Source of the DNA: Antedon mediterranea
Taxonomy: Eukaryota; Echinodermata; Crinoidea; Comatulida; Antedonidae
Direction of reading: 5' to 3'
Length of the DNA: 64,000 nucleotides
NCBI RefSeq assembly: GCF_964355755.1
Contig: NC_092679.1
Coordinates: forward strand, 4,154,001 to 4,218,000
Numbering within the stretch: the first letter of the stretch is position 1; every line of letters begins with the position of its first letter. The notes under the pieces are model-generated. The model ran no database searches and was not told where the DNA came from. It saw only the letters and a list, made by a program, of their open reading frames with translations. The translations under genes were made by a program, and so were the position numbers. Positions 16,200-51,000 of the stretch are shown piece after piece.

Positions 16200-19100
16200 T
16201 TACATTTTTGAAGTCGTATACACATTTTCATATAGTGATTGAATATTTGCAATTCCTTCTACAGTTTCCGTATCTTCCCTTACACACTTAGCATCCAAAT
16301 GATCCGCCGTTTCATATAGCTCATTGTCTTCGCATGTCTTCTCGTTAGCTATAGAAATGTTTTTTAAAGCATGGGTTACATACAAAGCTTGTATTTAGTA
16401 ACAATACTTTTTTTTTACTTTTACAGTGTTGGGATTTTTATTATTGGATTAAGCTTGCGTTGCGCCTACGTCGCTGTGTTGCGTGGGTTCAGTAGGCCTA
16501 CAATTGGGAACCAATATTTACATTTTCGAATAGGCAATGTTGTCAGTCAGAATCAGTTATTTAGTTTAAAAAAATACTTACCTCCTCTGTACGTCTTTGC
16601 TTTTCTTCGGATGATGAATATCAATAGCAGGATAAAAACAACACATCCTCCACAAACTCCTCCGACGAGATAGGGCAAATTACTGTTGTCCTTCGAAAAT
16701 ATAAAAATGCTCAGTACAATTATTTAACTTTTGGATAACTTTTTATAATACAAATTTGATCCTGTACTTCTATTAGGAATTTCTAAAGCAACAGTGCTTA
16801 TTACAAGCGACCAGCAGTTGCCAGCCAACAAAACTTCTAAAATTATTACTGTAGTAAGTTTACCTCTTTCGGTGACTCCTCTTTAGGTAGTTGTGTAATA
16901 GAGGAATCTTCAAATAAAATAAAGAAATGAATGAAGACATGGTCAAAATGTGCATTTTTGTTTTGATGCTTCGGTATAAGATGGCAATTGTGTTCGCATG
17001 TTCTATAACAAAAACAATTGCTATTTCAAACCGAATAAGACTCCACTTTATTTCCTCTGACATACAGAAACACTCCTTGTATGTTTGTCTGTTTGTGAAC
17101 AGTCTAGAGGTTGTTTTTATCCGAATCTTGCAAAACTTGGCCACAATAGTTTTTGACCCAAAATCGATGGTCAACTGCAAGGTCACAACGTACAACGCTA
17201 ATTAAAAAATATTTATTAAAATTTAACAAAGAACCGCCCTCAGCAGGATTTGAATCAGGGTTTTTAACCATGAAAAGCTAGAGCATACCTATTACACCAA
17301 ACTCACAGAATAGTTGTTATTGTTTCCTTATAGCACAGCCATGAAAGAGGTATTCGTACTCCCACTCCCTATGAAATGTTATAGATTACAGTATAGGCAT
17401 TTGTATTGTTTGGATCAGTGGACATCAGAGGAAAGTATTCTGCATCAAGCGTAATTATAAAAAAAAAGGCTAAACTTTAGTCTTATTACCAGAGAAAGAG
17501 TAGAACGGGAAAAAAGGAAACTGTATCTTAAATTTAAAAAGATTGGAAATTCTTGTTATTAGACTGCTGTGGTTAGTAAGAAAAGCCTGTAACACTTACC
17601 AATACATTTTGGAAAAGTGCTCTTCCAAATGCCAGACAGCAGACATTTTGTAACAATATTTTCTTCCAGGAAATATCCGGAATCACAACCAAAGCTACAT
17701 TCACTTCCTACTTGATTCCCGCATGGAGAAAGAATGTATCCGTTGAGGGGCGATGGAATTTCAGCACAGAGAATCTCTGTAAGATTATAAAAGCAAGTAT
17801 AAAAGCTGTTTATTGCCCATTGTGGTAATTTGTGGAAAGATACTATCTATATGACTTTTTTATTTAAAGCCAAAGCCGACTGGAAGTTGGGGTGTACAGA
17901 TATTCAGGATATCTTGTCAATACATATACTAAGGAGATTATCGTTTATTTTTCAGAATTTAAGAATCAATAATTCAATGTCTTATGACAAACCTTCGCAG
18001 CGTGTTGTACTACCACTCCACACACCGTTTGGTAAACATTCTCGCAAGTCGGAACCTATTAAACGATAGTTCCATTCACACGAAAAGGTGAACGTTTCTC
18101 CTGTTGTAAATCCGCTACATGTTCGATTTCCATAAAAAGGTACACCGATTTCAACGCAAGGGTTAGCTGTTGAAAAACATTATGATTGGAATTGAATAAA
18201 AATTGATCATTTTTTGTATAAGGTAACGTAGTAATATTTCTAAATTTGTTATGCCTTTTACGTAAAGTATGCCTGTACATCAAATTAGTGAAGAGCCTTT
18301 GATATATCTTACAATTATTTATTTAATTATTATGGTTACAATAAAAAGTGAAAAGGAAAAGTTTAAGCAACAAATTTACTAGTTACCCGTGCAGTTTTTA
18401 TTATCAGGATCAAGTGTCCATCCATCTTTGCAATCGCAGCTGAAGCTACCGATTGAGTTGGAACAGATTTGCCCACATCCGTCTATACCAACGCTACATT
18501 CATTAATATCTGGTAAACATAAATAAAGAGAAAATAAAATTATTGTTATTAGACTATTTTGAAAGGAAATGGAGATATTATTTAATTTGAAAGCAGAAAT
18601 TGTGTGTTACTGATGCAAAAAATGTTATTACTTGTTGCAAGAGAACCAGTAACCCTCAATAGTATCTGTGAAATTGTCTGTGATTTTAGTTCTTACCTTC
18701 ACAGTTGTATGAATCGTAGGCTTCATATCCTGTGTGACAAAGGCACTCAAAACTACCTTGTGAATTTGTACAAAAGTGACAGCTTGCGAAAGAGCATTCA
18801 TTGATATCTGAAGAAAAAAACAATTATTAGAATATAATTTTGTGTGTGTTGTTGAACCAATACCAATACGTTCTTTAATTTTCATAAAATGTGTTCTTTG
18901 TTTTCCTTTTCTCTTTGCTTTCTTCCTACGATATGTAATAGACGCTTTTAATTTTGTTATTTAGTTCTAATTTGAAGTTTTACTTCATGTGTTTTATACC
19001 TGTGCAGTTAGTTGTCCCAGAATATCCATCTGAACAATAACATCTAAAGCTTCCAGGAAGGTTTTCACAAAAATGTTCGCACCCGGCATTGTAGAGTTCG

Positions 19101-22100
19101 CATTCATCCACATCTATTTAAAATAAGGAAGTATACTTAAATGTAAATAATATAATTTCGTAATGAAAGTTTAATCAAATATCTGTGTAATGCACTGTTT
19201 TTATTGCAAGACAACATTTATGAACATGTTAATGTATTCCATTCACAATACACGAACATTTCACAGAAAACAAACTGTTTTACTTTGTTTATAAACAATG
19301 CTTTTAAGGACAGTTCGGACATTAACTTATGTACTGAATCCGTTATTTCATATATTAAATTCTGCCAGGACATATGTGATAAAGACGTAGTTAAGATATA
19401 TCCAAATCAAAACCCATGGTTTAATAAGTCTATTAAGGATCTGATACGAAATAGAGATAGGGCTTTCAGATCAAATGATAAGGATCTATTTAGGAAATCA
19501 AAATACGAGTTAAGAAAGGGAATAAATAAAGCCAAGAGAGAATATAAAAACGGGTTAGAGGAAGATATATCTTCCGGCGATTCCAGAGAGATATGGAAAA
19601 GCTTAAATAAAATAACAAACTACAAACCAAAATCTGATAAAATTAACTCAAATGATGACCTACCCCAACGACTGAATGATTTCTTCAGTCGTTTTGACAC
19701 TTCCCCTCTCCATCAAGACACTAATTATGAAAATGGTAATGATGTCCCGTTAGTTGTTCTTGAAGAGGATACTTGTAATGAGTTTAGTAGATGTAAGTCA
19801 AATAAATCAGCTGGTCCAGAAGGTATATCCCCTATGCTTGTTAAACATTGTTGCAAACAGATTGCCCATATTTTTAAATACATTTTCAATTTCTCTCTTA
19901 TATCTCAAATTATTCCGCGATGTTTTAAAGATTCTATAATAATTCCGATTCCGAAATGTTCCCCAATCGAAACCCTGAATGATTACCGACCTATAACATT
20001 AACGTCCGTTCTGATGAAATGCTTTGAACATATAGTCCTTATAATTACCTGAAGGCCAAGTGTCCAATATCAGTTCGCCTATAGACCAAACCGGTCTACT
20101 GAAGATGCTGTATCGATCACTTGCGTGTGGCGCAGTGTGTTGGACGTTGGACTACCGATCGTCAGACCTAGGTTCGAATCCAACTCTCGCCGCATTGCTT
20201 GTATCCGTAGGCAAGATACTTTATTTACGTTGCCTCTCTCCACCCAGGTGTATAAATGGGTACCCAGTTAGATCTAGACACAACTTTGCGCTGGTTACCG
20301 GCTGCATTATGGGAGTATGTTTCCATACGTGTTTGATCCCAAAAAATACTGGGGTAATAATCCTTGTAAAGCGCCTTTGAGCATGATTACTCATGAAAAG
20401 GGCGCTATATAAATGTGGTATTATTATTATTATTATTATCACTTTGCATAGGATCTTAGAGCATCTCGAACGTGATAAAAGATATGCTAGGATTTTATAT
20501 ATAGATTTTAGTTCAGCATTTAATACGATTGTACCGTATAAGTTACACACTAAGATGGTTGAAATCGGTTTCGATATTTCTATATGTAACTGGGTGTTAA
20601 ACTTTTTAACTGATCGACCCCAACGTACTAAAGTGGGCACCTGTTGAACCCACAAATGTGAAAACGCATCACCCACAAATGTAATAAAACAGCGCCCACA
20701 AATGTGAAAACGACCATCGCCCACAAATGTAAAAAAAAAATCAAATCAAATTTAGTGCTAGACTCAAACAAGTTTGATCAAGTTAATACATTATAATAAT
20801 CATGTGTATTGAGTTGTTTCAATAATTGTGTGTTCACGATACGTCTGTTAGGGTCGTCATTAACGCGTTGGAATATTACCATGTTCGATGTTTTTTGCAT
20901 CGACTTGGAACTATACGTACATACTAGTAAGTCAACCAGTTAACAACTACACAACTACAAGCAACAATGATATAACATGGCCTTGATCTGGAAGGAAGTA
21001 TCGTGCATTCGCGCAGCAAATATCGTCTTGAACTATACCACCAACGAGTTAACATGCAAATATCGCGCGCACGAGCAGTAAATTGTAATAATCCAACGCG
21101 TTAACGACGACCCTAACAGACGTATTGTGAACACACAATTATTGAAACAACTCAATACAATGTATATACATTAACATTAACTCGATCAAAATTGTTTGGG
21201 TCTAGCACTAAATTTGATTTGGATTCTTTTTTACATTAATTTGTGGGCGACAAGATCTCTCTTTTTTTCACATTTGTGGGCGCTGTTTTCACATTTGTGG
21301 GTGATGCGTTTTTACAATTGTGGTTGTTTTCACATTTGTGGGTGATGCGTTTTCACATTTGTGGTTGTTTTCACATTTGTGGGTGATACGTTTTCACATT
21401 TGTGGTTGTTTTCACATTTGTGGGCGTTTTCACAGTTGTGGGTTCAACAGCACCATTATATCGGATAAGCGTATTATAAATACAGGTGTACCACAGGGCT
21501 GTGTACTGTCGGCCTTTCTTTTTACTTTATTTACCTATGACTGTGTTACCTACTACAGTAACTGTCATATCGCTAAATTCGCGGATGATACTACCATTGT
21601 AGGTCTAATCAATGATGACAGTGATGAGTCTAATTATCGCAACCAAGTTAAACGAGTTGTGGACTGGTGTAACGAAAACAATCTGTTCTTGAATGTATCT
21701 AAGACCAAAGAAATGGTTGTAGACTTCCGTAAATCATATATCCAATATTTATTAATGGTATATCAGTTGAGTTTGTAGAAGAATTTAAATTCTTGGGATT
21801 TTTTTTTTCAAATTATCTGAAGTGGCATATTAACACACGTAACATTATTAGAAAGGCCCAAAGAAGAATCTACTTCCTACGTAGACTTAGATCATTTGGT
21901 ATAAACTCTGAAATAATGTCGTCCTTCTATAGGTCAGTTATAGAGAGTGTCATAACGTATTCTTTAACGGTATGGTTCGTTAGCGCTACCGCAAATCAAA
22001 AGCGTGACCTAAATAGATTAGTCAAGACCGCATCGCGTATAATTGGATCTGCACAATTGCCTTTGGAGAACATATTTTCGGATCGTCGGACCAAAGATGA

Positions 22101-25042
22101 TCAATTTCATCCGGCCTCTAGTATGTTCCAGTTGATGCGCAGCGGTCGGCGATTTCGTTCTATTAAAGCCAATAAGGCACGATTTACAAATAGTTTCTTT
22201 CCAGGAGCTATTAGAGCCTTAAACATATTATGTAGACACTTTTTTTGTAATTTTTTTGTTTTTGAGTTCGTGTTGTGTTCGTGGATATTGTGCACAGAGC
22301 AAACAGAATGTCTATGTTTTTTCTTAAAACAAATGATAATAAATGATACTTGACTTGACTTGACTTGAAACTAAATCAAAATGAATAGTTTTTTAGTTCT
22401 ATTTACCATTTTGACATCTACTTCCATCATATCCTTCGGGGCAGACGCAGTTGTTAGGTCCTGTACACTGGCCGTTGTTCTGGCACTGAGGCTGACAAAC
22501 GGCTGTAAAAAAATGGTTTTACGTAGTTTACAGGAACCGTAAAAAAGAGGGAAAATCCAGACAACGTGATTGTTAGAGTAAGTGCGATTAATATTAACGC
22601 TCCACATAACTATACCAGGAAAACACCAGTGCTGATGCTATTGAGACCAATCGTAACGATAACGGTAAATTCGGACTTAACAATTTCGGATATAAATCTA
22701 TGTTACTATCAAACTAGTTTTACAAAACAGTGTGATGTGCCCAAATATGGTAGTAATATTACATCATCGTATGGGCACATCACATTGTGTGTAAACAGAG
22801 CTTTAAAATATCATATATGTAAAAACATTTATAATGGTACCATGTATCATGATACATTTTTTGTAGCAAAATATCGTGTGCCATTATAACAAAATTAGTA
22901 TCTTACGCAGGCATTCAGTAAGCATTGAGAGTTCATATCCAGGGAGGCAACTGCATTCAAATCCACCGTAGTTGTTAGTACATATATGAGCACATCCATC
23001 AGTGTTCTCCCAACATTCATCACCTAAATAACAAATTATGGCATCATAACTAATTTCTTCTTTTAATTAGTCATCAATAATAAGATGGACCTTTTAACAA
23101 ATTGCAATGTGAAAAAGGTATAACGTTTGTTTAAACGTAAGATTTCGTACGTAACGCAACGTAAGTAGTTTGACCAATCGCAAGCGATAGATTATTCGAA
23201 CAATCGTGTGTGATTGGTCAACTTAATTGCTTTGCGTCTCTAGTGGAAACACAGCTTTAACAACAAAAAGAGACACTATACCCAAATGCCATTTCGTCAA
23301 TACTTACGATCGTCACAAGCATCTCCAACGTAGAAGTCTTCACACTCACAATAATCTGGAGCCGTGCACTCTCCATTATCACATGGTGGAGTACAAGTAA
23401 CTAGAATTATGAGTTACATTGTTAAAATCGAAAATCGATTTATGAACAATAATTTATTTGTTTCCACTGCAAACTTTGGAAAACTTCGAATTTGCTCGAG
23501 TTTGGAAACAATAGTTTGCCAGTTTTAATTCACGGGAAAACATGTTGTTGACAGGGCCTATTTTAAAGTTGTAATTTGTAGAATAGATTGAAAATGAAAT
23601 ATTTTTCAAATTTCCATTCACTCATGATAATTATTATTCTAGTTTACTACGCACCTTCACAGTCACTCCCATTTGCTTTCAACACATATCCCGTGTTGCA
23701 TTCACAATAGTAACTTCCAGCTGTGTTCCTACAATGGTGTTCACATCCACCGTTGTTACCCGCACATTCATTGATATCTTAACAAATTAAATAGTTTTTA
23801 TATTATCAATGTAAGCACTAATATAATACTAGTTACAAAACATGCATCCCATAAATTGATAGATTATTATTAACCAGCACTTGGAAGTAAAGAACATTAG
23901 AAAACTCAATTTCTGAATAACTGACCTGTTTCTGGTGTGTTATAAGTGTCACAGTATCTTTCTAATGTTTATTTTAAATGGTTTGATTAGAATATTTAGT
24001 ATTCTTTTAAACTCATACTATTGATTTGTTACGATTAATGAACGACAATTTTGTATCATCTAAATGTTCTTGGTCATCATAATTATATATTGTTTCGTTA
24101 TTACTAAGTGGTTATATTCAATAATCTACATAGACAATTAATGAATCTGACTTGCTCTAACCACCTTAATAACGACACTGGTACACTCTTTATTTGTATA
24201 TGTAACTTACCAAGACATTTTGTTCCTTGAAATCCACTGCTGCACTCACAAGTGTCAGGATCAACGCATGATCCACCAACGCCACAATCATCGGGTAGAC
24301 ATAATGCTATAATAAATATTTTGATTTAAAAAAAAGTTTCTATGGTATTAATTATTAACTGGTAAAGTCCCTTTTTTTGGAGGCTACCACTTAATGTTCA
24401 AACGAAAGCATTATGATTTTGGTACATTTGTTTATTTTCCTCTTATCATTACATTTTTATTACGTAATATCATTACATCATGTTGAATTCTCCATGCTTA
24501 CACAGAGCAAAATGAAATCCAGTTCGCTCTTAAAATTATTCAATCTTTTAAATGTTTTGTTCATTTCTCGGCCAATTTATATATTTATCTTACTTTCTGC
24601 CAAATTAAATTTACTTGAAAATTATATCGAGTGAATATATGAACTCACAAATTGTACAGCCTCCTAATCCATCTTCAGCCCAACCGCTACAGCAAAAGTA
24701 GTTTGTTGAGTCCACATCGTAATACTGGATTCTGTTTGCTGAAGTATATCTCCGACTTAAATAAAATCGTATTTTTAATAGATAAAAAAAATTAAAAACA
24801 AAAGAAGTAATGAATTGACAACAAAAATTAACAGTTCTAGAGTAATATACTGTAATATAAATTGTGCTAACGGGCCAAACACACCTGAGGTTGGGGGAAA
24901 CATAATTGGATCGTATTTCTTTAGAATGGCTTTAGTAAGCCTACGTCGAGAACAGATCAGTAGACCTATCATTCATAAGATGTTACTCATGCCCCATTAT
25001 GATTAGTTGTTTATTATTTACCCGTACGTTCTGCAGCGGTCC
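16200..25042 (-). CDS. EMI-EGF-sushi-TM receptor gene, copy 2, 5'-truncated
   Basis: Exons (high to low): remnant 25,042-25,021; 24,755-24,649; 24,306-24,211; 23,777-23,655; 23,400-23,308; 23,023-22,907; 22,502-22,407; 19,113-19,000; 18,807-18,697; 18,509-18,387; 18,166-17,993; 17,776-17,600; 16,907-16,864; 16,690-16,582; 16,348-16,200. They encode the second half of EMI, eight EGF units (five calcium-binding types), two sushi/CCP domains ([12 protein letters not shown]...[19 protein letters not shown]...WKSTFPKC), a stalk, a TM helix ([11 protein letters not shown] then RRK) and a 49-residue tail with ELYETADHL and [16 protein letters not shown] fits a Grb2-type SH2 site. All exons are open and in frame. 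However, the signal-peptide exon and most of the first EMI exon are deleted, so it is expressed only if a new 5' end exists. Confidence 0.8.
17225..17310 (-). mobile_element. tRNA-like SINE head fragment
   Basis: On the minus strand an A-box-like start followed by a B-box-like GATTCAAATCC with acceptor-like GAGGGCGGTTC. A short degenerate fragment in an intron. Confidence 0.3.
20121..20440 (+). mobile_element. tRNA-derived SINE with conserved core and GCGCTATATAAATG tail
   Basis: Starts GCGTGTGGCGCAGTGTGTTGG, with B box GGTTCGAATCC. A core follows with CCGTAGGCAAGATACTTTAT and CACCCAGGTGTATAAATGGG. The 3' part has TTGTAAAGCGCC and GGGCGCTATATAAATG, ending in a TTA repeat. Flanking ATCACTT(T) is duplicated; the undisturbed site is in the copy 1 LINE near 2040. 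The core is shared with the 5S-type SINE at 1126 and the 3' part with 35.4 kb. Confidence 0.85.
20642..21449. mobile_element. Foldback DNA transposon, 808 bp, TGTTGAACCCACA ends
   Basis: Perfect terminal inverted repeats TGTTGAACCCACA...TGTGGGTTCAACA, flanked by the 5-base repeat GCACC (20,637-20,641 and 21,450-21,454). The copy 1 LINE shows the empty site near 2236. The termini carry many copies of CACAAATGTG in clusters. The arms stay complementary for ~240 bases inward (for example CAATAATTGTGTGTTCAC and AACGCGTT), so most of the element is one large hairpin. There is no transposase. TGT...ACA ends with a 5-bp TSD do not point to one superfamily; Ginger-like is possible. Confidence 0.9.
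22702..22806. mobile_element. MITE, family 2
   Basis: Paralogue of the element at 3462, in the same intron of EMI-EGF copy 2, with CTATCAAACTAGTTTTAC and GGGCACATCACATTGTG still visible. The right end is shortened. Confidence 0.65.
23130..23240. mobile_element. MITE fragment, family 1
   Basis: Contains CGTAACGCAACGTAAG, GACCAATCGCAAGCGATAG and TGCGTCTCTAGTGGAAA. Same insertion as at 3946 but better preserved, so it predates the duplication. Confidence 0.6.
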
Positions 25043-26200: not shown

Positions 26201-29200
26201 CTACACTAACAAACTTTTGTTTGCAAACTCCGATCTTGCCACTGCTTGACATTGTATTTTATTTTTGTGTATATGCACGGACGGCCAGAGAAGATCAACC
26301 ATGTGTTGATCTGGGCCTCCGTAGTTAAATAAAGTTGAATTGAATTTAGTGAGAAGGTTTTGTATACTCCGGAGACTGTGGATCTAAACAACACGCGATC
26401 ACCACAACACCAAGCCAATCCTCAATTGGACAGCCGCCAAAGGAAGACAAACTTTCTCCAAAAAGTAACAAACTCGGAATAATCAGGAAAGAGTATAATT
26501 TCACTCTTCCTTGGAATAATCATCGGCACAAAAGATTTGAATTTAAAACCAGCACAATTCTGCCGGTCACATTTACTATTTTATTAATTTCAAACATTAT
26601 TTATACAGGATAAAAACATCAGATATAGATTTTAGAACAATAAGTGAAAACATAATTTTTTTTTTTTACGTAAGTGGTTAACTTTATTAAAACTGTAAAA
26701 TTGCAAACGTCTATTTTAATGATCTTCATTTCTCATTTTTGTTTGGAGGACAAATACATCTTTAAGCCTGGTTCAGCGCAACGTATAATTTGACCAATCA
26801 CGGCGCGGTGAATTATGATCAATGTTGTTTTTCAGGTGACGTCTGTTCTGTTGTTTTGATTCTTGTTGTCGGTATTCCTTCATGTTTCTCACTAAAATTT
26901 TGTGTTGAAATATTTCTTTAAAAAAACAAAATCAAAATTTAATATAGGTTAAAAAATAAAGAAACTATACGTAGACCATAATTTTTATTATTTTGATTTC
27001 ACCCAGGATTGCTCTGCTTAACCTACTTCGTTCGTTCGTTTTTATTTCACATTGCATCACACTTGATGAATTGTTACAGATTAATTTAAAGTATTAAATA
27101 AAAGATGCAAAGCCTGGAAAAGACCATAAATTAGCTCAATATAGAGCTTTAAGTCTGGTTTCACCAGAACAAAATGAACTAATACTTGTATCAAATACAA
27201 ATAAACAATATTCTTTATATTAAATTAATTGGAATAATGCAATAACACAACACTGCAACTTTTAGCACATAGGCCTACATACCTTATATATACACGACAC
27301 ACATAAGAAACTACAGATCATTCCAAAAATGAACCCTATGGCAATACTACAGGCTACTTTCCATGCAAAGACATCTTAAGAAGAAAATTTATAATTATTA
27401 TCGATCGAAAAACGTATTGAGGTATTAAGGACAGAGTACTCAAATGGACTATTACACTATCACATTTTAAAGTCGTGCGAAAGATTAGATGGGATTGATT
27501 TTTCCATATTTTTCCTGACAGTGTGAATGTAGGGCAATTGGTTCCCGAGAAAGATTGGCCGGAGAGATGATCCTTTTAGATTAAAATGATTAGATTAAAA
27601 ATGATTATACTGTAGTACGTATAACTACGTTTAGTGTTGTTGTTTAGGAAACTTTTTTGGTAACTATACGTAGGCCTACTGTTTATTGCACTGACTGTCT
27701 CATAAACATTACAAAAAAATCATATGGTATTGCAGCAAAAAAAAGGAGTTACTGCAGCCGCTGCAGTAGAATAATTTGGACATATTTCATTATAAAATGA
27801 ATAGATGAATGAAAGCCCTCAGAAACTGATTGAAGTACAAAATATTGCCACAGAGGGCGCATGTTAAAAGAATACACATTTTCCTTTTTTGTTATTTGTG
27901 AAGTTATTAATGAACCGATTTTTTTAAAATTTCAATAAGCATGTTCTATCTACACCGACAAAGTCAGAATGATAACTTGAAAATTGTAGTAAAGCAAGTA
28001 AATTTGTATTTTGCCAAGCAATAATTGCACTGAAGACGAGGGCGCTATAGGCCTACGTTAGGGCATCAATAGGGAATTTATATTATTGTTTCTGTCTCAT
28101 GATAGTTACCTGAATGATCCTTAACTTCAATTGTTGTCTTTTCCGATGTGATGTTTTCTAAGCGGTTTTCGCACATACAATGGTAACTTCCTTCATCACT
28201 TTTACTGATATTACGAAAACTAACCCATTTGTTCGTTTCATTTGAAAGCAATTGTTCATTTCGGTACCACGTGACAGAGGGGCTGGGGTAACCATTGCAT
28301 ATGCAGATCAAATCAACCATGTTACCTTGTTTTGTTGAAATTGTTCTTTTTTTAGTGTATTTTTTATTAAAATTCAAAGGAACCCGTTCTGCAATGTAAA
28401 ATGAAATGTCTAGATAGAGTCTAGCAGACTATCACAAGTCATCATAAACGAGTCTGGCTGTATTAAATACTTTTAATCATGCCAAAATCTCTATACTTAT
28501 TATTTCTTTTACAGCTCCTCGAGTAATAGGTACGCCATATGCCAAAATGTTCTTTTCAGGAATTTTAAGCAAAATCACTGTCTAGAACCTGTTTATAAAT
28601 CCCTGATGATAGAATACTATACTCACGTTTTATGCTAATGTTAATGTGTTTATTTACAGTTCTTTGTGCAATAATTGGTTCGTGAGAATATACGGCACAA
28701 GAATAAATTCCGCTGTCATGTTCTCTTGCTTTTCGTATGGTGTGACTCGCTGCAAACGACATGATGTCGTCGCTTCCACTACAACTACAATCTTTTGAAG
28801 TGTTGGTGGGGCAACCGTCGGCATTTGGACATTCATTGTCACTGTTTATGTCGCAAAACCACATTTTCATTTCATACATTTGTATGCCCTACGAAAATCA
28901 AATATGCATACACATCAGTATAATATTGAAACTAAATTAGGGAGAATATAAGGTCGGGATATAGGGCCCAGGATGCAAAGACAAAATAAACTATACCTAA
29001 CGCAAGCGTGGTTCCCACTAGCGACGCAACCCAAGGACGTTGACCAATGACAAGCAACAGGTTGAATAACTGAAGTTTAAAGTCAATAACATCCGTATTT
29101 TTTGCAACGGTGTAAGTGTTGCTGTTTATCGAAACGTTGTATAAGTGAGAGATGGGATCTGTGTACGAATCACCCCAAACATAAATGAATACAGCAAGGA

Positions 29201-32372: not shown

Positions 32373-35300
32373 ATGGTGTCCAGATATTATATTATTTGTT
32401 ATGCAGTCATGCTATTAGTGGTCGTGTCTGCAAAAAAAATAAAAACTGAAGAAGAAGGTAAGAGATTCGTTCTTGTTTCTGTAGACTGTAGTACTAGTAG
32501 ACAATTGGTTCAGGGAGTAATTTCTTACTTTGTACTACTAGTTTTTTTATTTATTTGTTTAATTAAACTTTAGCAGGGTAACCCTAAACAGCATATTCTG
32601 ACAATCAAGGGGCCCTCATATAACATATAAAAAACATACATGAAAAAAATATGAACTATATGAAAAAAAAAAAACTACTATGCTCTGTTACTGCTAAATT
32701 GTCCGGATTTGATCTTTAAATTTAGAGAACATAGAGTTAAATCCTTTAGTCAAAATGCTAAGATTTAAGTTTGTGAAAGGGCAGGGTTGAATCCATCAAA
32801 TATTCTCTATCCTTCCCTGGCCACACCCTCACAACTTTAATCTGATATTTTAAATTAAGTGACACCTAATTTATTTAATTCTGAATGTTATATATTTGTT
32901 ACGTTCTTAATATTTTTTATTTGAAATAAAGGATGATTTTATTACTATTATTGATACTTAATATTATTATCCTACTGCCCAAATGTTTATATACAAATTA
33001 GAGATTACGTTAAAATGAAAATATTTCATGTTTGTGTGCTAACATAGGTGGTTATAATACTACAGATTTATTACAATTACATCCAGTGATAACATCCCCA
33101 GCTGTAAGTGGACCATATGAAATGGTTATAGGAGAAACTCTGCATTTATCTTGCAACGTCAACAAAAAAGTAGACTATGTAAGTTGATATTGTGTTGGTT
33201 TGGTAAACATTGACAAAGAGTGAAAAAAAGGATAGAATAGTTGTAAGAAATGATGAGAAAGATAAAACACAAAACATTGCATACAGATGAGTAACATTTT
33301 TTTCGCTGAGGCCCAACAACAAAATTTGATCAAATGAAAAAGATGGGCTTATATTTGGATACGGACCTAAGCCTTATCATACCAGGGTGGGACAATTTTA
33401 AATATTGTGTTTAAAATTTACCATTGACTTAAATTCAATTTAAAGTTATTTTTGTTTTCCAGAATTTTCAGGGCCACCGGCCAATATTCATGTGGTGGTG
33501 TAATTCAACTGCAAAGCCTTGTCATAATAGTAGCGCGCCATTATTATGTAACATTTGTATTAATGTAACCAAAAGTGGCAATGAGGCTAACACATCCAGT
33601 ACTGAATTGACTATTGAACATGTCACCAAGGCCAACACCAGTACATATACCTGCATTGCATTTACTGATGATGATGACTATAGTGCCAGCCCAGTAAATA
33701 TCAGTATTCAGGTCATAGTTCACGGTATGTGCTTTTGAATAAATATGGCAACATACTGTCTCATTTGTACATGCTTACAACAAACAGCTAACACTAACAG
33801 ATAAAGAGTACAGCTAATGAAAAACATCTCAAGTGTACAGCTAACAATAAACAGCTAAAGAGTACATCTAACAGCTAACAACAAACAGCTAAAGTGTACA
33901 GCTAACAATAAACAGCTAAAGAGTACATCTAACAGCTAACGACAAACAGCTAAAGTGTACAGCTAACAATAAACAGCTAAAGAGTACAGCTAACAACATA
34001 CAGAAAGTGTACAACAATAAATAAAATAGTACAGCTAATAACATACAACTAACAAAAACAGCTGTATTATTATTATTCATTATACAACTTTTACAATTTT
34101 AGATCTAAAAATCGATAAACTATTCAAAAAATAAACTTCTCGAACAACAATTTTCTATATTAAACTTAATAATTGATGTTTTACAGAAAAAGTTAAACCA
34201 AAGTTGACAGTTACACAGAGTGTGATTAAAACTATAGGAAGATTTGTTGAACTTGTTTGCATCGATAGTGTGGGCTACCCAACTACTAGTATTTCATGGT
34301 ATAAGGATAGTCATTTTGTACATAGTGGTAGGCTTCTGCGATTAGACAATGTTAGCCACCATGATGCGGGAGTATATCATTGTTCCGCAGTGAATCGTTT
34401 CAATCGAGTGAATTCATCTGTTATTCTCAAGGTTCAGGACGATAGTAAGATGAAATGAAAGGCTTGTACCCTTTTCACATGTGCCTTGAGAAATCTTGGG
34501 AGATAAAGCTTAGTTGCGCGCTATTTGATTACTATGACTGGTCAGTTTAATACCAGGGCAATACATGCGCGCAGTAAGAACTCGGGACATCTCGGAACAA
34601 AAAAACATCCTCTCATCAGTGTGTTTTTTTTTCTCCAAAATTGTCTTAACAGTATGCAAACATTTTTACAACTTTGCTTTTTGCAGGTGTGAAAAGGGTA
34701 TAAAACCTCTATTAGTTTCCAATACTTTTTTTCACATTAATGTGAATTCAAATCTACACATTGAAAAATAACCCATACTTTCTGAATGAGGTTTAAATAT
34801 GAGCTAAAGGGTTTTGACTTGTTTTAACTGTGAGAAAATCCTAGTACTGGGTACGAGGATTGAACCAATTTCTGTGGTTTTTTTTTATAATGATATTTAT
34901 TTTTATTTTCATAGTGATATTTATTTATTTTTATAGTAATGACATCTTTTTCTTTATCCTGTTTATTACATAAATGGATACTTTTGTAAACTTCGTCTTA
35001 TTTTGAATAGTTTCAGAATCATTCACTAAATATAATGTGATTGTAGGCTGTCCAGCAGCACTATTTGCAATTATTGGTAAGCTTTGTTGTTATTTTTGCC
35101 TTCATAGCCGTCCATAGCTTTTTTGTGTTGCTGTTTAACATTGTGAGGTTTTTGTACAATAATGCGTTAGGCTGGTTAAAAACTAGGCAACCTGTAGTAT
35201 CCTTAAGTTGTGCATGCTTCATTTACTCTCTATTCTTAATTCTGGCCCCGAAACCTTGACTCAGAAATACCGGGATGGTGTCCGGCGGGGGATAGTTTTA

Positions 35301-37035: not shown

Positions 37036-38380
37036 TTAGTGTCCATTCCTTTTAGTTGGTTTAAAGTTTATTTTAAGATTTTTCATTCAGCCTTGTTGAA
37101 GATATGTAAATATTATAAAAGTGTATATGAATACAAAAATGTCGACTTTCATAAATAAATTGCGTTTATTTCAATTTTTTTTCTAGGAGTAATACTAAAA
37201 TCTACATTGGTTTCACCCCCCCCCCCCATGTACATACTCCGCGATACGCTGTGTTTGTTAAGGGGCATACAACCGATTGTGTCGCAGCCACAGATAAATC
37301 CTTTAATCTCTGAAACTCTCCATTCTGTTGTTAGATTGCCTTGGTTGAACACTGAAATTGATCTAAATTGAACTAAATCTAGGAAGCAAAAAGCATGCTT
37401 GGTAATTTACACTAGTGGCTATATCTTATAATATCTAACATTATATAAATAATATAATATTTATAATAATAATAATAGTGTATAAACATTAATATCATTA
37501 GTTTTTCTACTTTAACGCAGGAACTCTGATTTGCTTTGAAACAAATCCTAAACCCTAACATCCTCCTAAATATAGGAATACAGTATATTTTGTTGGTTAA
37601 AACACAACCATATTATTACAACACTTACATTCATCAACGAATGTGTTATCGTTATATTCTCAATGATACATACAAAAATACATACAAAAATACATAATAT
37701 TTTGTATTTTTTACGGTTTGTATGTTTGATGTCTTTAATAAATAAATTCTCTTCTTAAAGATGTATTGACAAATTTAAAAAAAAAATAAAAATTCCGAAA
37801 AAAGTGGATCATTTTGAAGTATTATAATAGTTATTAACTTTCACCAAAAATTAGTCTAAAAAAAAAATCATTTAACTGAAATACAGATGTTTTTTTGTTC
37901 AAAAAATAACTTTGACTTCCAGTCAAAGTTTTCGATCAAAACATGTCCCATAATGGAACGCGGTTGTTTGTCTACTCTGTATGCATAATCATAAAACTTC
38001 CTCGCGATCTGTGTGAAAACACCTTCTTAACAGTGATGAGTTGTACACAATCCAAATTAGCATATGCATAATGCATACTCGTGGTTTGAAATCTTTGTTT
38101 ACTTTAGCTCGCGACGATTTTTCAGACGAAATGTAATAAAACTAATTTACCTGTTAATTACGTAAACTTGTTGTTTTTGGCTCGAATTTTGAATAACTTT
38201 AATATTACTTTGATATTGCCAATTTAAATTTAGAATATTTTGACCTTCATTTTTTTGTGTTCCAAGAGACAATACATCTTTAAATAATTTGAAATAAATA
38301 AATAAATATAAATATGTATTTTTATATAGAGAATGTAATTAGAAATACAGAATTCAATTATATTGAATTATAGGACTTTT

Positions 38381-41127
38381 TTATCTGTCACTTGGCCCTT
38401 CATCTGTCATAAACATTAGCGCCATTGGATTTGTTAGTGAAGGGTAACGGTCTGACCGGAGGTACATTGCGTAATTGTCGGGTGACCTTGCGAGATAAAA
38501 TGGTGTCCTTGCGTACTCTTTGTTGAATTGTTGATTGATCATGAACAAGAAGGAAGATGAACCCCACGATACGGGTTGTATACAGAAGAATGCTGAAAGT
38601 CCTTCCTGAAAATAGAATAAAATGAATTATAGTATAATGCACTGTTATTAATATTTGTTCCCAAAAGGTTTCCAATTTGTGAAATGTCAATTGTACATTA
38701 TAATACATACACTGCATTGTTTTGTTTAGTTCGTACTACCTTGTTTCCACTTCGGTTTTGTTTGAATAAAAAAAGTTGATGGATGTTTTGAATGATCATT
38801 TGTTTGATTGATTGATCATTTATTTTTATCGATTGATTGATTAAATTGGTTCAGGTTTGCTTGCTTGTGTTATGCCACAAATCCTGGAGATTGGTTCTCA
38901 CTAGCACGCAAGGCAAGGGCGTAAGCACAACCAATCATCCATCGCGTCGGGATAGGTCAATTTACTTTCGTTGCGCTTATGTACGTGCGTTGCGCTTACG
39001 TACGTGTGTTGCACTTACGTACGTGCGTTGCGCCGTGCGTTGTGTTCAAGTGGAATATAACAAATAATCACAAATTCAGACTTACTATTTCGTTAACTTT
39101 TATTTTATCTGTGTTAACGGCCAAAAGAATGACCTTGTCGTCTTTCTGGTAGATACATAGCTGATATGGAAAACTGTATTTGTCTGATTTTGTAGGATCA
39201 TGCATCATCAGCTGTACCTGATTGTTGCGCGTCTGACTAATCTTTCTAAATTGTATTTCAGCTGTAATAAAGTATAATTTAAAATGAATATGAAAAAATG
39301 TCATTAGCTGAAAGGTTAAATACGTAATGTTTTTTAGATAAGTTACTTTTATACGAACTCTGGAAATTTCTTGGGGAAAACCAGATGAATGCGTTTCTAT
39401 CAATCAATAGGGGCGTTTTCAAATTATTGTTTTGCAGAAGTAGGTTACAGCTGAGCTCGCCATGTCAAGATAGGAACTCGTAACAGCCCTTTGATCTTAT
39501 GTCTGGCTGCGACAAATACAGTGCAATCGTACTGCACTGTACTATGTATATTCTCCGCGGTGTCTGTTAAAGGAGCGTGGAACTGATCGTGTCGCAGCCA
39601 CAGATAAACCCTTTGATTGCCGGAGCTCAGCATCCTGATTTTTGATTGCCTTTGTTAGTTTCTGCTCAAAATATTAAAACAGTACTTACATGCTAGGCTC
39701 TTGTTTTTATCATAAGCGTATCCTTTAAAATCAACACTGTAGCCTTTCAAATTTGATGGCAGGCCTACTGCCGCCTTCTTTGTTATCTGCAGTGCATTTC
39801 TTCCCATATTTTGCTGATTTGACCAAGGCAAAAAATGCACAATGTCCCTGTCTGCGGGATACTAAAATTTGAAATAATAATTAGAATGCATATTATTTTA
39901 GGCCCCTATGTTAAAATGGCGACCATCTTGGATTTCAACATGGTTGCTAAACGAAAATATTTACTTTAATAGCAATATATTTGGAATCTAAGTAGGCCTA
40001 TAAATATAGACACCATTTTTAACCTGCTATGTTACTCTATAACCCATCTTGGATTTTAACATAGCGGCTGAAATAGTATTTATAACTTTAATAACAATTT
40101 ATAACATATTATTTGGAATCCTCAGTATCACAAACGTATAGGTATAGATACCATTTTTAACCATGCTATGTTACCACAAAACGATTCAAAGTAGTTGTTT
40201 TAACGAACACTATTTTCCAGTTAAAGATATATTGTCCCTCTTAAAAAACTGTTTTAAATTTTTGTTGAATACCGGTATGCCAAATAATAGTTATTCACTT
40301 TGACCAGAAATTGGATCGAAAAAAAGTCAAATTGGCTGCCAGCCAATGAGTTTTTGATTTATTTTATCAAATTCAAAAATGTCCACTTAATAAGTCAAAA
40401 CATTATTTTCAGATAAAACCACAAAAAGTCTTGATTTTTCATGTTTTGGTGGACAATACATATTTAATACAATTGTCCCCGTTCGATTTTTTTTCTTTAA
40501 AGAACCGGAAGTTTGGGTGCGGTCCCGCCGTCACATGAACAATGATTTATTTACAGCACCCGGCCACTCGGGGAATTTCCCCAAAACTAGCAAGTATGAT
40601 TTGAATACATATTCGAACAATTAATTATGGTTAATGGTAGGCCCACTTAATCAATCATTGCCTCTTAGTTTAAATTTCTTAATGTACGTTATCTACTTTT
40701 GTTTCGGCTGAACTTGTACTAAAGATTCGTACGATGATTGTATTAAATGTAATCTAGGGCTCTACCGGTATTTGACCCGCATCCACAATAATTTGAAAAC
40801 TAATTGAAAGTGCTATCAATTAAGTATGGTATAAAACATCAGGATTGGTTTCCACTTAGACGCAACGCAATGACGTAAGCGCGCCGCAAGTACTATTTGA
40901 CCAATCACGCCCTACGTGTTTGCGCTACGTTCAAATGGGAACCAAGCTTTAAGTATATTCGTGGTTAAGAAACTTACCCTAAGTTCGATTTCGGCGGGAG
41001 GGATGGGATACATGCTATCGACTTGATCATCTCCTCTCAAAACTTCATTGTTATTGTATCCTCCAGCTGGTTGCAATTTCTCTGAATCTGATAGATATTT
41101 CTGTTCTTCTGTCATTATAGGCGGCAT
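38381..41127 (-). CDS. Candidate IL-1/IL-18-family (beta-trefoil) cytokine-like protein, 240 aa
   Basis: Exons (high to low): 41,127-40,978, 39,861-39,690, 39,261-39,086, 38,605-38,381; GT-AG junctions, phases 0, 1, 0, 241 codons with stop. No signal peptide and no TM segment. An acidic N-terminal region holds DQVD followed by S at residues 34-38, a caspase-type site. Exon 3 encodes alternating strands (VQLMMHDP, FPYQLCIYQKDDKVILLAV, DKIKVNEI) and exon 4 encodes FFCIQP, FLFMIN, PFYLARSPDNYAMYLRSD and ALMFM. Order and spacing match IL-1 beta around its last intron, and PFYLA sits where the family has P-x-W-Y-I-S. Known IL-1 ligands are leaderless pro-proteins, as here. The family call is by-eye homology; an FGF-like or unrelated trefoil is the main alternative. 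The gene model itself is firmer than the name. Confidence 0.6.
38888..39055. mobile_element. MITE, family 1, in the IL-1-like gene's last intron
   Basis: GATTGGTTCTCACTAGCACGCAAGG...CAACCAATCATCCATCGCG and then repeated CGTTGCGCTTACGTACGTG units ending GCGTTGTGTTCAAGTGGAA. The right arm has expanded into four short tandem copies. Confidence 0.6.
40845..40952. mobile_element. MITE, family 1, in the IL-1-like gene's first intron
   Basis: GGTTTCCACTTAGACGCAACGCAATGACG...GACCAATCACG...GCGCTACGTTCAAATGGGAACCAAGCTTTAA. Short copy with both ends. Confidence 0.7.
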
Positions 41128-41220: not shown

Positions 41221-41229
41221 CTATATAAA
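41221..41229 (-). promoter_or_regulatory. TATA-box candidate of the IL-1-like gene
   Basis: On the minus strand ATTTATATAGACTC lies about 95 bases upstream of the ATG at 41,127, placing a start site near 41,195. No acceptor-like signal is seen between them, so the first exon would be simple. Confidence 0.4.
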
Positions 41230-44062: not shown

Positions 44063-47000
44063 ATGAAACCGTTCTGCAGCTGTACGATTATGTACTTATT
44101 GGTGGTAGTGTTTAATGGCTTTACAGTTAGTGGTATTGAAATAATCAAGTCTTTCTCACAAGATAATTATTGTAATAAGAAATCAGGTAATAAATACACA
44201 ATATTGTTTATAAAATAGACCTACTTTGATGGATTGTAGGCCTATAATAAAACTTTATGTGACAAAAAAATGTGATCTGCCCATATATGGACATGATGAT
44301 GTCATATTGGTTGAAGGTTCTTTGTAAATTCTTTTATTATTGATATATTTGGATATTTCTTAAATAATTTATAATAAATCTATTTTTTACTTGTTTTTTT
44401 TAGTTTTAAACATGTTAAACTTAGGCCTATGTGTTAGAGAAAAGATATTAGTTAAATTGTTTTTTGGAGTTTCTGTGTTATATTATTTATATTTTGTTTT
44501 GAGGAGCCTATTCACCACAAGCTTTGCTTTCTTTTAGGCTCCTCCACTTTATATTTATATATTTGTAAAGTGAAATAAATAAATGAATGAAATGAATTGA
44601 AAATATTTGGGCATATCACAACCATATTTGTGCACATCACATTGTTTTTTGATTTTTTTTTTTTATTGTCACATAACGTTTCATAGTGTAGACAGACTTG
44701 TTGGTGATTGCATTTGAAAATGCCAGCCATCATTTTTTTGGCCTCTAATTATTTATCGCTTAACTTTATATTATTTGTAATTTTAGTGTTTTTTTTCTTA
44801 TATTATTTTGATGTATTTTTCCGTAGAGAGCCGCATGACTGTTATTTTTATATTGATTTACCTTTCGGTCTGTTTTCATGTACGCTTTGTTAATAATAAT
44901 GGCGAAGCCTGATATGATTATGATACTTATAATTATTATTTAAACTACCGTTTTACATTAAAGGTTCGTTTGAAAAATACTCTTTTTTATAGAACATTCA
45001 GCGCTTCAAACAAAATTACCTTGTTTTTGCCCGAAAGAATGGTATGATGGTCAATTTTTAAAATCTCTATGTCCCACGATTGAAACACGAAAAAAAGAAA
45101 TACAGTTAATTAAAGGAGAAAATGTAACTTTTGAATGTCGTGTGTCTAAAAAACTTGGACCGGTATGTATAATGTTACACTACTTTATCAAATATTAATA
45201 GTATAGGCCTATTATACCGATTGAATTAAAATATAGAGGATCGACACCCCTTTATATACTTGGTTCCCACTAGGACGCAACGAAAGTAATTGACCAATCG
45301 TAGGCAATTATATTATATTCGAACTGTCGCTAGAGCTTCGTTCTCACTATAACGCAACGCATGCGCAAGACTCAAACGCAATGCAAGCGTGTTGACCACT
45401 GACAAGCGACAGTTCAAATAATCCATCGCTTGTGATTGGTCAACTCACTTACGTTGCGTCCACGTCCTTGCGTTGCGTTCTAGTGAACCAAGCTTAATGT
45501 CATTGGTCAACTCGCTACGTTCTTGCGTTGCGTCCTACATGCAGTATAGTATAGTGGGAACTTACTTTTCCCATAAAACGAATGATGGCAATATGTGTTT
45601 TCACTAAACGACCAACCCACAGGGGATACCCATATTTAAGCGTGGTTCCCACTAGCGACGCAACGCAAGGACGTAACGCAACGCAAGTGAATTGACCAAT
45701 CACAAGCGATGTCTTATTCGCTTGTGATTGCTAACTGTCTATTCGCTTGTCATTGGTTAAAACGCTTGCGTTGCGTTTACGTCCTTGCGTTACGTTCTAG
45801 TGGGAACCAAGCTTAAGAGGGGAATGTGTCGGGTCCCCGGAAGGGGCTCTGGGTTCTACAAATAGTGATAAATGATTTCCTATTTGATAAAATTACAAAG
45901 ACTATAACGAAACGTATCAAATTTGTGACATTTTATTGTATAATTTTCTATTACAGGACCCCCACTATAAAATTCGTATGTGGTGGTGTAATGGAACGGC
46001 GGGTGAAAAATGTTACACGAATGAACAAGCACCTGACCGGGGCACGCCTACTTATTTTGTCTATTCAGAGAGTGGGTATGAGGCTAAGGAGTGGTTTATA
46101 CGTTTCACCATCACGAACGCCAGCAAAATGGATGAGAATACGTACACGTGCGTGGCAAACACGGAGGATTTTGATTATACAGAAACTCCGGGCTATAACA
46201 GCATTCACGTGTCTGTACATGGTAAGTATTTCTTTATTGTTATAAATAAAATGATTATTTCTTTTCTTAATGAACTCACTTCTGAGGACGATCCAAGCTT
46301 ATTGATCGAAACGTCGAGAAACTCAACAGTTCTTTTCAAAACTAATAAACGTGGTGTACCGCAAACTTTATATCAACACTTAATGCACTTGTTAATAATG
46401 AAAAATTCCCCTCTATTTCAGATGCTGTTAAACCAAATCTTATTTATCAACCACCGCCAAAAGTCAACAAAGTTGATGGTAGACTGGTAGAACTGTACTG
46501 TGCTAGTAGTGGATATCCAGAGACTAATATCCAATGGGTTAAAAATGGAACACCACTAACAAACGGCCTAAATAGCACCAACATTATACAATATGGAAGC
46601 CAATCAGTTTTACAGATTAAATCGATAACTGAGTCGGAGGAAGGAACGTATCAATGTATTGCGTCTAATAAATTAGATTTAATTGAATCACAAGGAACGA
46701 CGGTGACAGTCGGTAAACAACAGCAAAGTAAGTCTCCGTAAATTTAACAATATTGGTATTGGTAGATATTTCGAAATAAATTTGGCGGGAAATTTGGTCA
46801 TGTGGTTCTTATTGTTTTCGTTGTTTTATAGAGTGGAGTTGGTTCATTTGTCTATACATAGCAATAATGTCGTTCAGTGGTGTCGTCACAGCCATAGTGT
46901 TGGTGGTAGTATGCTCAAGTCGGCGAGGTTGGTCTTTTTACGATTTTGATATTAACTTAACGATATTCGTTCACGTCAGTGGAGTGATTAATACCAGCAA

Positions 47001-48029: not shown

Positions 48030-51000
48030 ATGGCTTCAGATTCAGGAAAACAGCTTGTCAAAAGTAAGAGTGGATTACGTATGATAAGTATTGAGGAGAA
48101 GGACAATAGTCCCTTTCAACTTTTAGAGCCACCATGGGTACCAGATATGCAGGTGGGTATGCAAGTTGTCAGTGAAGTCTAGCCTAGGCCTAGCCCTAAC
48201 TAGCCTAGGCTAAATAGGCTAGGCCTACGGGTATTCAGGCCTACTACTAGCCTAGGTAGGCTAGGCCTAGCTAGGCTAGGCTAGCCTTAGTAGGTAGGCA
48301 GGAGGCTAGATAGCTAGGCTAGGGCCTAGTTAGGCCTGCCTGGGCCCACCCAACTCCACCAGGCGCCTTAGTAGGCTAGAGTAGTAGTAGATAGCCTAGG
48401 CTAGTAGCTAGGTAGTATAGGTAGCCTAGCCTAGTTAGCTAGCCTAGCGCCAGGCCCCTGCAGGCCTGGCCTAACTAAGCCTAGCTAGGTCTACACAGGG
48501 CCTAGCTAGGCTAGTAGGGCCTGGACCTAGGCTAGGCCCTACGGTTGGTGAGCTGATTAACAATCAAGGCAAGAAAAGGGGAGGGCTAGCCTAGTCCTAT
48601 ACGTTAATCCTATCTATCTAGGCCTATTCATTTTAACGCAGTGGTTAGGAATCCGGCACCGGAACTCAACTGCACATTGTAACAAATCCAGACAGAAACT
48701 TTACACACTGAGAACTAAACCTAAAACTAAAAACATCCCTCTAGGCAATGGTGGGTAAAGACGATGATGGATAAAGACGATGGTCAATAAAATACAATTT
48801 TTTGAATAAGAAAAAAATTCAAAATATATAAAGAATTGAACCTACAAAATCTAGCCGCAGTACCACACCACTAAGCCAGCCAACCAGTCGGAAAAATTGG
48901 TGTGTACATGAGGTTATAAAAATGTGCATGCATGAGCAGAGGGGTGGAGGAGGCAGGGTGTATTTAATGCCTCTACTACAGTATTAACTATTAGTAAGTG
49001 TTAGCTTGTCAATTGTATGACCCACTATACGACCCCCCTGGGAGAGTTGCATAATTTGTCTGATGTGTGTGATACCATGACGCACCTGTCTGTGTATAAA
49101 AAATATGACTTGCCTTTAGGTGATTATGACACACCCATCTTTATGCACTGTGATCATGTTTATGATAAATATAGTGGGTGGTAAAGTAACGGGCACTGAC
49201 ACACCATTCATTGCACATTGTTCATTGATGTTGCGTACCATTTAGGTTTTTTGAGCACCCCTGCATCAATACTGATTTGTAAATGACGCATCCATGACAC
49301 ACCTCGCCCATGGATCGTATACTAGTGGGTCATACAATTGACAAAGTGCATAACTAAGACTACCTGATAATTGCTATTAAATATTTCTTTTTTTTTAGTC
49401 TAAAGAGTGTATTAAGTGCCATTCAAAATTTGACTTAATGAAGAGAAGGGTAAGGATTTCAAACGTTGTCGCATAAAATAATATATGACCACATGGCTCG
49501 AAATTGAAACAAACTCCGCAAATCTAACTTGAAAAATTTAAAAGCTAACTAGCAGACTATCAAACGTATATTTAAAAATAAATTACAACCAGCAAAATAC
49601 TTTGGAAATTTTTCAATATCAATTACAGTGGAGTTGTGGCTTGGTGGTTTATGATGCTTGGCTAACAATCCTGTTTTCAAGTTCTGTCAGTTTCTATTAA
49701 CAATTAACTCCACTCACAAAGACTTGTAATAAGAGCATCTTGTGTTGTTTGTCTTGTGAACATTATTCCCACCTTTTTGATAGTGAATGAATTTGCCTAT
49801 GATTTGCCTAAATACAGTATATATAAAAACATCAAAACAGTATGAAAAATCTACTTGCTATGCTAGCTAGTATATTATGGTGAATTTCAAGCCCTGTCGC
49901 ACAGTAGTAATTTATTCGTTAGCAGAAACAAAACTTTAAATCAGATATGCGTTTTCATTTAGCATCATTGTCGACGATGTGGACTTTGTTTCTGCAATGT
50001 CTGCTGTGCTAGTAAAGTCGGTCTTCCTCGGATGAACTTTGTTGACCCCGTCCGTATGTGTTCTGAATGTTCTGTTGTCACGAAAAAAGAAAATGAATTT
50101 TATGACAAGCATCTGAAGTGTTTGATTACTGGAAGTTTCTTCATGTTATCAGCTGCTGATGCTGACGAAGATAACATTGTGACATATGTCAAGCTCACCG
50201 CTAACCACAGGTGAGTCTCTCGTTTTATCCATGTCCCACCAAATGTCCATTAATTAATATAAAAAAGTAAATAAATAAAAGTGTATGCATGGTATGATCT
50301 CGAGTCAACCAGCAGTGAAGTCAACTGATACTAAGTGTGTGTGTTCAGAAGAAGATGGCTACAAGAACAGTAATAACATTGCTCAGTCTTGTACAATCCT
50401 ATTGGTCCAAGTACAATACTTAAAATATCTGGTCAACAAACATAACCACCTTCTTTTGTGCCTGGTTGTCGTGTCATAGTTTCCACAGTAGGCTCAATCT
50501 CATTGAATAGATCTGTACTTAGTGTGTCACTTTGCAATCACATTTCAAGCCAAATAAACAATAAACAAACATCTAATTCCCCTTTTCATTCCAATAAAAA
50601 AAAATGTTATAATAGTGTTTTGTATAAAACTTAGGGGTGACACAACATTAGGCACTTTATAAATCCAGGATATTATTATAATCTTACTGTACAGTAATAA
50701 TGGTAATAATATTTATTTGGATCAACACTTTTTTAACAGTGGCACACATGCGTAAATGGTGCTTCTATACAAATTACAAAATTTAAACAACACAATTACT
50801 TAAAAAACTATACACAAACAATGGAAATTAAAAACTGAAACTAAAACATTTATCCTATTTGATTGAGAACTAAAATATAAAATTTGACTAAAGGCTTATT
50901 TACAAGACTTTTTAATACAACAACTAATTTTGCAACAGCAACGGAAAAGAAAGCACACATTTTAAAATAAAACAGTTCAAAATTGTTATAGAATTCAGTA

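Follow-up and report, generated by a model that had tools for sequence, protein, structure and literature searches.

A four-exon orphan gene of the crinoid Antedon mediterranea and its low odds as an IL-1-type ligand

Introduction

Do IL-1-type ligands exist outside vertebrates? Receptor genes resembling IL-1R occur in invertebrates, and no IL-1 ligand gene was known outside vertebrates in the genomes of 2022, according to the part of PMC9020223 available to us; judged by titles and abstract openings, the papers returned by literature searches likewise report none. The question is raised anew by a small minus-strand gene in a 64-kb stretch of DNA (64,000 nt, hereafter the window) from Antedon mediterranea. 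Its 240-residue product had been proposed in an initial annotation as a deep IL-1/IL-18 homologue in an invertebrate deuterostome, and the source animal is indeed an echinoderm. If true, no earlier IL-1 ligand would be known at the molecular level outside vertebrates, and the ligand would be older than the chordate/ambulacrarian split; a proven crinoid IL-1 would answer the missing invertebrate ligand of PMC9020223, as that source's available part describes it. As it stands, the locus holds a real orphan gene and a reasonable yet low-odds IL-1 candidate.

Results

Gene model and protein features

The four exons join to 240 residues plus a stop codon (Table 1), with GTAAGT at three of three donors, AG at three of three acceptors and intron phases 0, 1 and 0. 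An NCBI/UniRef entry from this comatulid crinoid, 'uncharacterized protein [Antedon mediterranea]', is identical over all 240 residues, so the same exons were picked by an independent annotation. The exon number, protein length and span (38381-41127) given initially were all exact, and this is a genuine protein-coding gene.

Table 1 Features of the gene and its flanks (window coordinates)
Feature	Position	Strand	Description
Exon 1, coding part	40978..41127	-	residues 1-50; Asp/Glu-, Pro- and Gly-rich; donor GTAAGT, phase 0
Exon 2	39690..39861	-	172 nt; residues 51-107 and base 1 of codon 108; donor GTAAGT, phase 1
Exon 3	39086..39261	-	176 nt; remainder of codon 108 to residue 166; donor GTAAGT, phase 0
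Exon 4	38381..38605	-	225 nt, 74 codons plus stop; residues 167-240
DQVD|S	41014..41028	-	residues 34-38; sole DxxD followed by G/S/A/N/T in the protein
TATATA, possible TATA box	41222..41227	-	100 nt upstream of ATG
TTATTTATTTATTT, AU-rich element-like repeat	38292..38305	-	starts 76 nt after stop
ATTAAA, possible poly(A) signal	38198..38203	-	+178, downstream of the AU-rich stretch

The protein is about 27 kDa, and its acidic N-terminal part is probably disordered. Hydropathy revealed neither a signal peptide or leader (the most hydrophobic N-terminal 11-mer averages -0.7) nor a membrane segment (the top 19-mer anywhere averages 1.3), in agreement with the earlier description of a leaderless protein. 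Lack of a leader is a trait of most cytosolic proteins. The single DQVD|S motif is, by consensus, a candidate caspase-type site.

Search for relatives

Among 5.77 billion proteins, the only match at E<=10 was the protein itself, for both the whole-protein query (141 scored candidates) and a query with residues 108-240 (22 scored candidates); because this type of search depends on 5-residue words in common, divergent relatives can be missed. In the Antedon genome (354-Mb assembly, 18 contigs), where the window occupies C10:4154001-4218000, all four candidates were the gene's own exons, and paralogue searches of the window gave matches beyond these exons only at E>=2.4. NCBIfam held no family matching the protein, Pfam returned one unrelated bacterial methyltransferase domain under the cut-off (E 0.063) and a phmmer search of PDB gave a single unrelated chain (E 0.29). 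Within the searches run, the gene appears restricted to this crinoid lineage, a claim that we hold jointly with the whole preferred reading set out below and consider probable to the same degree.

IL-1 profile tests and their power

Profile comparisons gave the proposed IL-1 relationship no significant support. The IL-1 profile PF00340 left the protein unmatched in both a Pfam scan and a genome-wide PF00340 search. A profile comparison of the kind that the initial annotation had suggested likewise gave no IL-1 signal, hhalign assigning a probability of 0.3% in a comparison with seven IL-1 superfamily members. An IL-1beta HMM scored the protein at -1.6 bits (619/2000 shuffles as good) and an IL-18 HMM at -1.3 bits (877/2000), and for an IL-33 HMM no score was reported. 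The best score for the whole protein came from a 38-sequence superfamily HMM, with 1.7 bits (equalled by 54 of 2000 shuffles), but the reversed protein reached 1.5 bits; with the same model, exon 3 alone scored 4.1 bits (62/2000) and exon 4 alone -1.9 bits (242/2000). On an eight-sequence IL-1 HMM, the full-length protein scored 0.1 bits, and three cuts of it scored 0.6-1.3 bits, values matched by 74-90 of 1000 shuffles.

The power of such tests was gauged with known members. When left out of training, IL-33 still scored 10.4 bits (2/1000 shuffles) and IL-18 23.7 bits (0/1000). An HMM built from IL-1beta only recovered IL-18 (9.0 bits, 2/1000) and FGF2 (12.9 bits, 0/1000) but gave IL-33 -0.7 bits, a score reached by 298 of 1000 shuffles. 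Because IL-33 is invisible to the IL-1beta HMM, a failed PF00340 or profile match is not decisive: true members can escape one subfamily's profile, and the negative result therefore lowers the IL-1 claim without ending it. The available part of PMC5861070 questions whether IL-18 and IL-33 share an ancestor with IL-1beta, given that trefoils may arise repeatedly. A search of the protein database with seven IL-1 superfamily members gave 421 proteins at E<=10, and the named sources among the 120 matches listed were mammals.

The portion of PMC12108812 available to us describes a conserved IL-1 family motif, FES...PG-WF. A PFYLA block, likened initially to the P-x-W-Y-I-S segment of IL-1s, is present in the last exon, but the FES part is absent at the expected spacing.

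The genome-wide PF00340 search pointed to one place, locus L005, at 23.2 bits (cut-off 25); 14 control genomes had no PF00340 match, so this search has no positive control. L005 (733-2196, minus strand, at 21.92 Mb on contig C11) carries a 487-residue open frame of an Ig-type membrane protein with an Ig domain over the cut-off at residues 40-128. Within the frame, PF00340 matches residues 159-231 below the cut-off (20.7 bits, E 0.00033). We read this match as chance: by eye, the same residues show the C..W..C pattern of another Ig fold, and the open frame also encodes a membrane segment.

Intron phases in IL-1 and FGF genes

In published IL-1beta genes, the last three introns have phases 1, 1 and 0 and the IL-1 domain lies within the last three exons (PMC4880838, available part); in pacu IL-1beta, exons of 168 and 137 nt precede the last one (PMC7687281, available part). 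The candidate shows phases 0, 1 and 0, compared to 1, 1 and 0 in IL-1beta, with exons of 172, 176 and 225 nt. Its last exon of 74 codons is close to that of human IL-1beta, which we take to span 70 codons.

The last two phases are also found in another family of this genome. A PF00167 search of the Antedon assembly gave 14 FGF-like exon matches, three of them flagged at or over the cut-off. All seven penultimate exons read by eye have an acceptor in phase 1 and a donor in phase 0, and each of the three last exons examined begins in phase 0. Since phases 1 and 0 are common to Antedon FGF-like genes and IL-1beta, IL-1 is not singled out. The initial statement that the final intron falls at the place of the last IL-1 intron is thus right as to phase and loses its specificity: the phase pair argues weakly for trefoil ligands as a class and not at all for IL-1 specifically, and an intron-phase match alone cannot separate IL-1 from FGF. 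The Antedon FGF-like exons, which lie at loci L006-L013 on contigs C4, C5 and C10 and include a cluster at C10:17.61-17.67 Mb with the exon 2 core GLYLSMD, look like a crinoid FGF expansion.

These phases, flanking seven of seven FGF-like penultimate exons read as they do that of the candidate, raise the alternative that the protein is a very divergent FGF-type beta-trefoil ligand within the crinoid FGF-like set. We regard this as highly improbable. The candidate gene is among none of the 14 PF00167 matches, and ten comparisons with Antedon FGF-like exons gave no significant alignment (z -0.98 to 1.69), whereas those exons align to one another with z values of 2.9 to 18.6. Its penultimate exon, at 176 nt, also differs from the 104-110 nt of the Antedon FGF-like exons read.

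Intron-anchored and pairwise alignments

Intron-anchored alignments mostly resembled those of shuffled sequences. The line-up of exon 3 with IL-1beta, made by eye in the initial annotation, does exist, but the gapless intron-anchored match of 44 residues holds four identities and is not above chance, 764 of 5000 shuffles scoring as high; its hydropathy correlation of 0.27 was matched or exceeded by 175 of 5000. When seven IL-1 superfamily members were built into right- and left-anchored profiles, the candidate had z values of 0.14 and -0.42 (69/150 and 97/150 shuffles as good), and profiles of four core members gave -0.85 and 0.11. Members left out as controls scored higher, with right/left z values of 3.74/6.49 for IL-18, 4.26/7.29 for IL-1alpha and 1.93/1.66 for IL-33; FGF2 as a further control gave -0.19/6.04.

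Pairwise alignments of the last exon with 11 references ranged from z -0.98 to 2.18. IL-33 (2.18, 14/500 shuffles), IL-1beta (1.80, 26/500) and FGF2 (1.60, 33/500) ranked best, and IL-18 lowest. Under other gap rules, IL-33 rose up to 2.83 and IL-1beta to 1.95 (82/2000 shuffles), the IL-1beta value varying between 1.0 and 1.95 across settings. Penultimate-exon alignments with 15 references ranged from -0.98 to 1.69. As a power control, the last exon of a divergent Antedon FGF-like gene, L007, gave z values of -0.78 to 0.61 with seven IL-1s and 3.3 to 4.0 with FGF2 and a further two FGF-like exons of this animal. The mildly favorable anchored results are the best among many comparisons.

MAFFT was tried with eleven sets or settings (three plus eight), and the register varied with the IL-1s chosen. 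In an alignment with 19 IL-1beta/IL-36 sequences, the exon 3 strands were aligned and the last intron fell at most one residue from where we take that of IL-1beta to lie, while the phase-1 intron fell about 15 residues before its presumed IL-1beta counterpart. This alignment, in which the last intron nearly coincided, was the one used, a choice that favors the IL-1 claim.

Structure prediction

The IL-1 superfamily fold is a twelve-strand beta-trefoil. AlphaFold reached a pLDDT of 34.8 from the single sequence. Supplying the 19 IL-1beta/IL-36 rows, which tilts the test in favor of the IL-1 claim, gave 37.7, and only residues 141-160 then averaged above 55. Foldseek returned no match at E<=0.001 for either model (0 of 95 and 0 of 77, respectively), and the search with the single-sequence model was set aside as meaningless. 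For the IL-1-row model, the top match was IL-1beta (E 0.55, TM 0.15-0.20, rmsd 14.5), which we do not count as support because the rows given to AlphaFold were IL-1s. Prediction thus yielded no usable fold match and no confident non-trefoil fold either. Both low-confidence models place strands at residues ~95-100, 106-112, 123-125, 140-147, 150-157 and 185-187 and also hold short helices. The domain that follows the acidic N-terminal part is likely mostly beta-strand, 'mostly beta' being a weak prediction because the pLDDT values are 35-38 and the second model was steered by IL-1 rows.

Weighing the IL-1 reading

The reading as a deep IL-1/IL-18 homologue would make the protein a beta-trefoil pro-cytokine with a mature domain from about residue 90 and a predicted IL-1R-like receptor. 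The candidate resembles IL-1beta, IL-18 and IL-33 in being a leaderless precursor of similar length with a candidate protease site ahead of the domain, in its phase-1 and phase-0 last introns (as in the IL-1beta genes of PMC4880838, available part) and in the similar length of its last exon. The exon 3 strands and last intron in the 19-row alignment, the last-exon z values for IL-33 (2.2-2.8), IL-1beta and FGF2 (1.6) and the superfamily HMM score speak in the same direction. It departs from the superfamily in that sequence, profile and structure comparisons gave no significant match, in the missing FES part and in the phase of the first of its three introns, 0 rather than 1. Against the homologue also count the near-equal score of the reversed protein, an IL-18 last-exon z of about -1, anchored profiles on which left-out members reach 1.7 to 7.3, the unmatched PF00340, AlphaFold models with no confident fold even given IL-1 rows, a MAFFT register that shifts with the IL-1s chosen and the early phase-1 intron of the 19-row alignment.

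No test gave a significant signal for the deep homologue that was originally claimed; the same tests miss true relatives, so the claim stays unrefuted as well as unproven. A true IL-1-type ligand is an outcome to which we assign a small chance, and deep homology to IL-1/IL-18 is accordingly unlikely in our judgment, if clearly less so than an FGF-type ligand. The fuller version, a crinoid IL-1-type pro-cytokine that would be cut at DQVD|S, fold as a beta-trefoil, share IL-1/FGF-like last phases and be made from an AU-rich unstable mRNA, is marginally less likely still.

A probable lineage-specific leaderless protein

The best explanation, and in our view the probable one, is a lineage-specific leaderless protein with an acidic N-terminal part followed by a mostly beta-strand domain. 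Such a protein would be soluble and cytosolic, and its transcript may be inducible and short-lived. The gene's flanks bear on these transcript properties. Downstream, the 14-base TTATTTATTTATTT has a single match in the 64-kb window (0.02 expected) and was present in 2 of 100 shuffles, and five ATTTA pentamers lie +68 to +96 after the stop. The 9-mer TTATTTATT is enriched across the window (21 versus 5.7 expected); AU-rich 9-mers being enriched window-wide, the AU-rich element could be no more than an AT repeat of this region. Upstream, two more TATA-like words lie at -249 and -413, and the 700 nt before the gene contain no kappaB consensus and one loose Rel-like word.

If the lineage-specific protein signals, it would, by analogy with leaderless alarmins, have to exit from damaged cells by a route other than the secretory one, perhaps after trimming at DQVD|S. 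More likely than not, and counted inside the preferred reading, is an ordinary intracellular protein whose cytokine-like features are coincidental in an AT-rich genome. The empty homologue searches, the lack of a fold and the commonness of AU-rich nonamers in the window are in keeping with it; nothing specific opposes it, apart from the 14-base AU-rich repeat that occurs once in 64 kb, right after the stop.

Genomic surroundings

Pfam was scanned in all frames over 41.2-56.2 kb of the plus strand and 22.8-37.8 kb of the minus strand, together with ten selected open frames. Ig exons over the Pfam cut-off flank the gene at 28.08-28.43 kb (-), 34.18-34.46 kb (+) and 46.35-46.74 kb (+), adjoined by weaker Ig-like exons. 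By eye, the Ig exon sets at 28081-28888 (-), 33433-34455 (+) and 45891-46738 (+) look like paralogous two-Ig receptors. With Ig exons on both sides of the gene, a ligand-receptor pair came into consideration. IL-1R receptors combine Ig with TIR domains, and the pairing was rejected, the scanned parts containing no TIR domain. The available part of PMC5861070 lists CKAP2L, SLC20A1, PSD4 and OGDH as IL-1beta neighbours; in a further difference from that family, none of them was recognized in the window parts scanned.

Other features of the window include sushi and EGF-type exons (PF00084, PF07974, PF07645 and PF14670) at 17562-24325 (-), which suggest an adhesion-type mosaic gene, and a FYVE domain over the cut-off with a sub-threshold ZFYVE21 C-terminal match at 49963-50211 (+), likely a ZFYVE21 orthologue. 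Repeated fragments resembling reverse-transcriptase retroelements were seen by eye at 1437-3117, 19156-20049 and 21305-22350 (+), the first of them directly preceded by a 5S rRNA-like sequence at 1120-1240 (+; RF00001, 71.3 bits).
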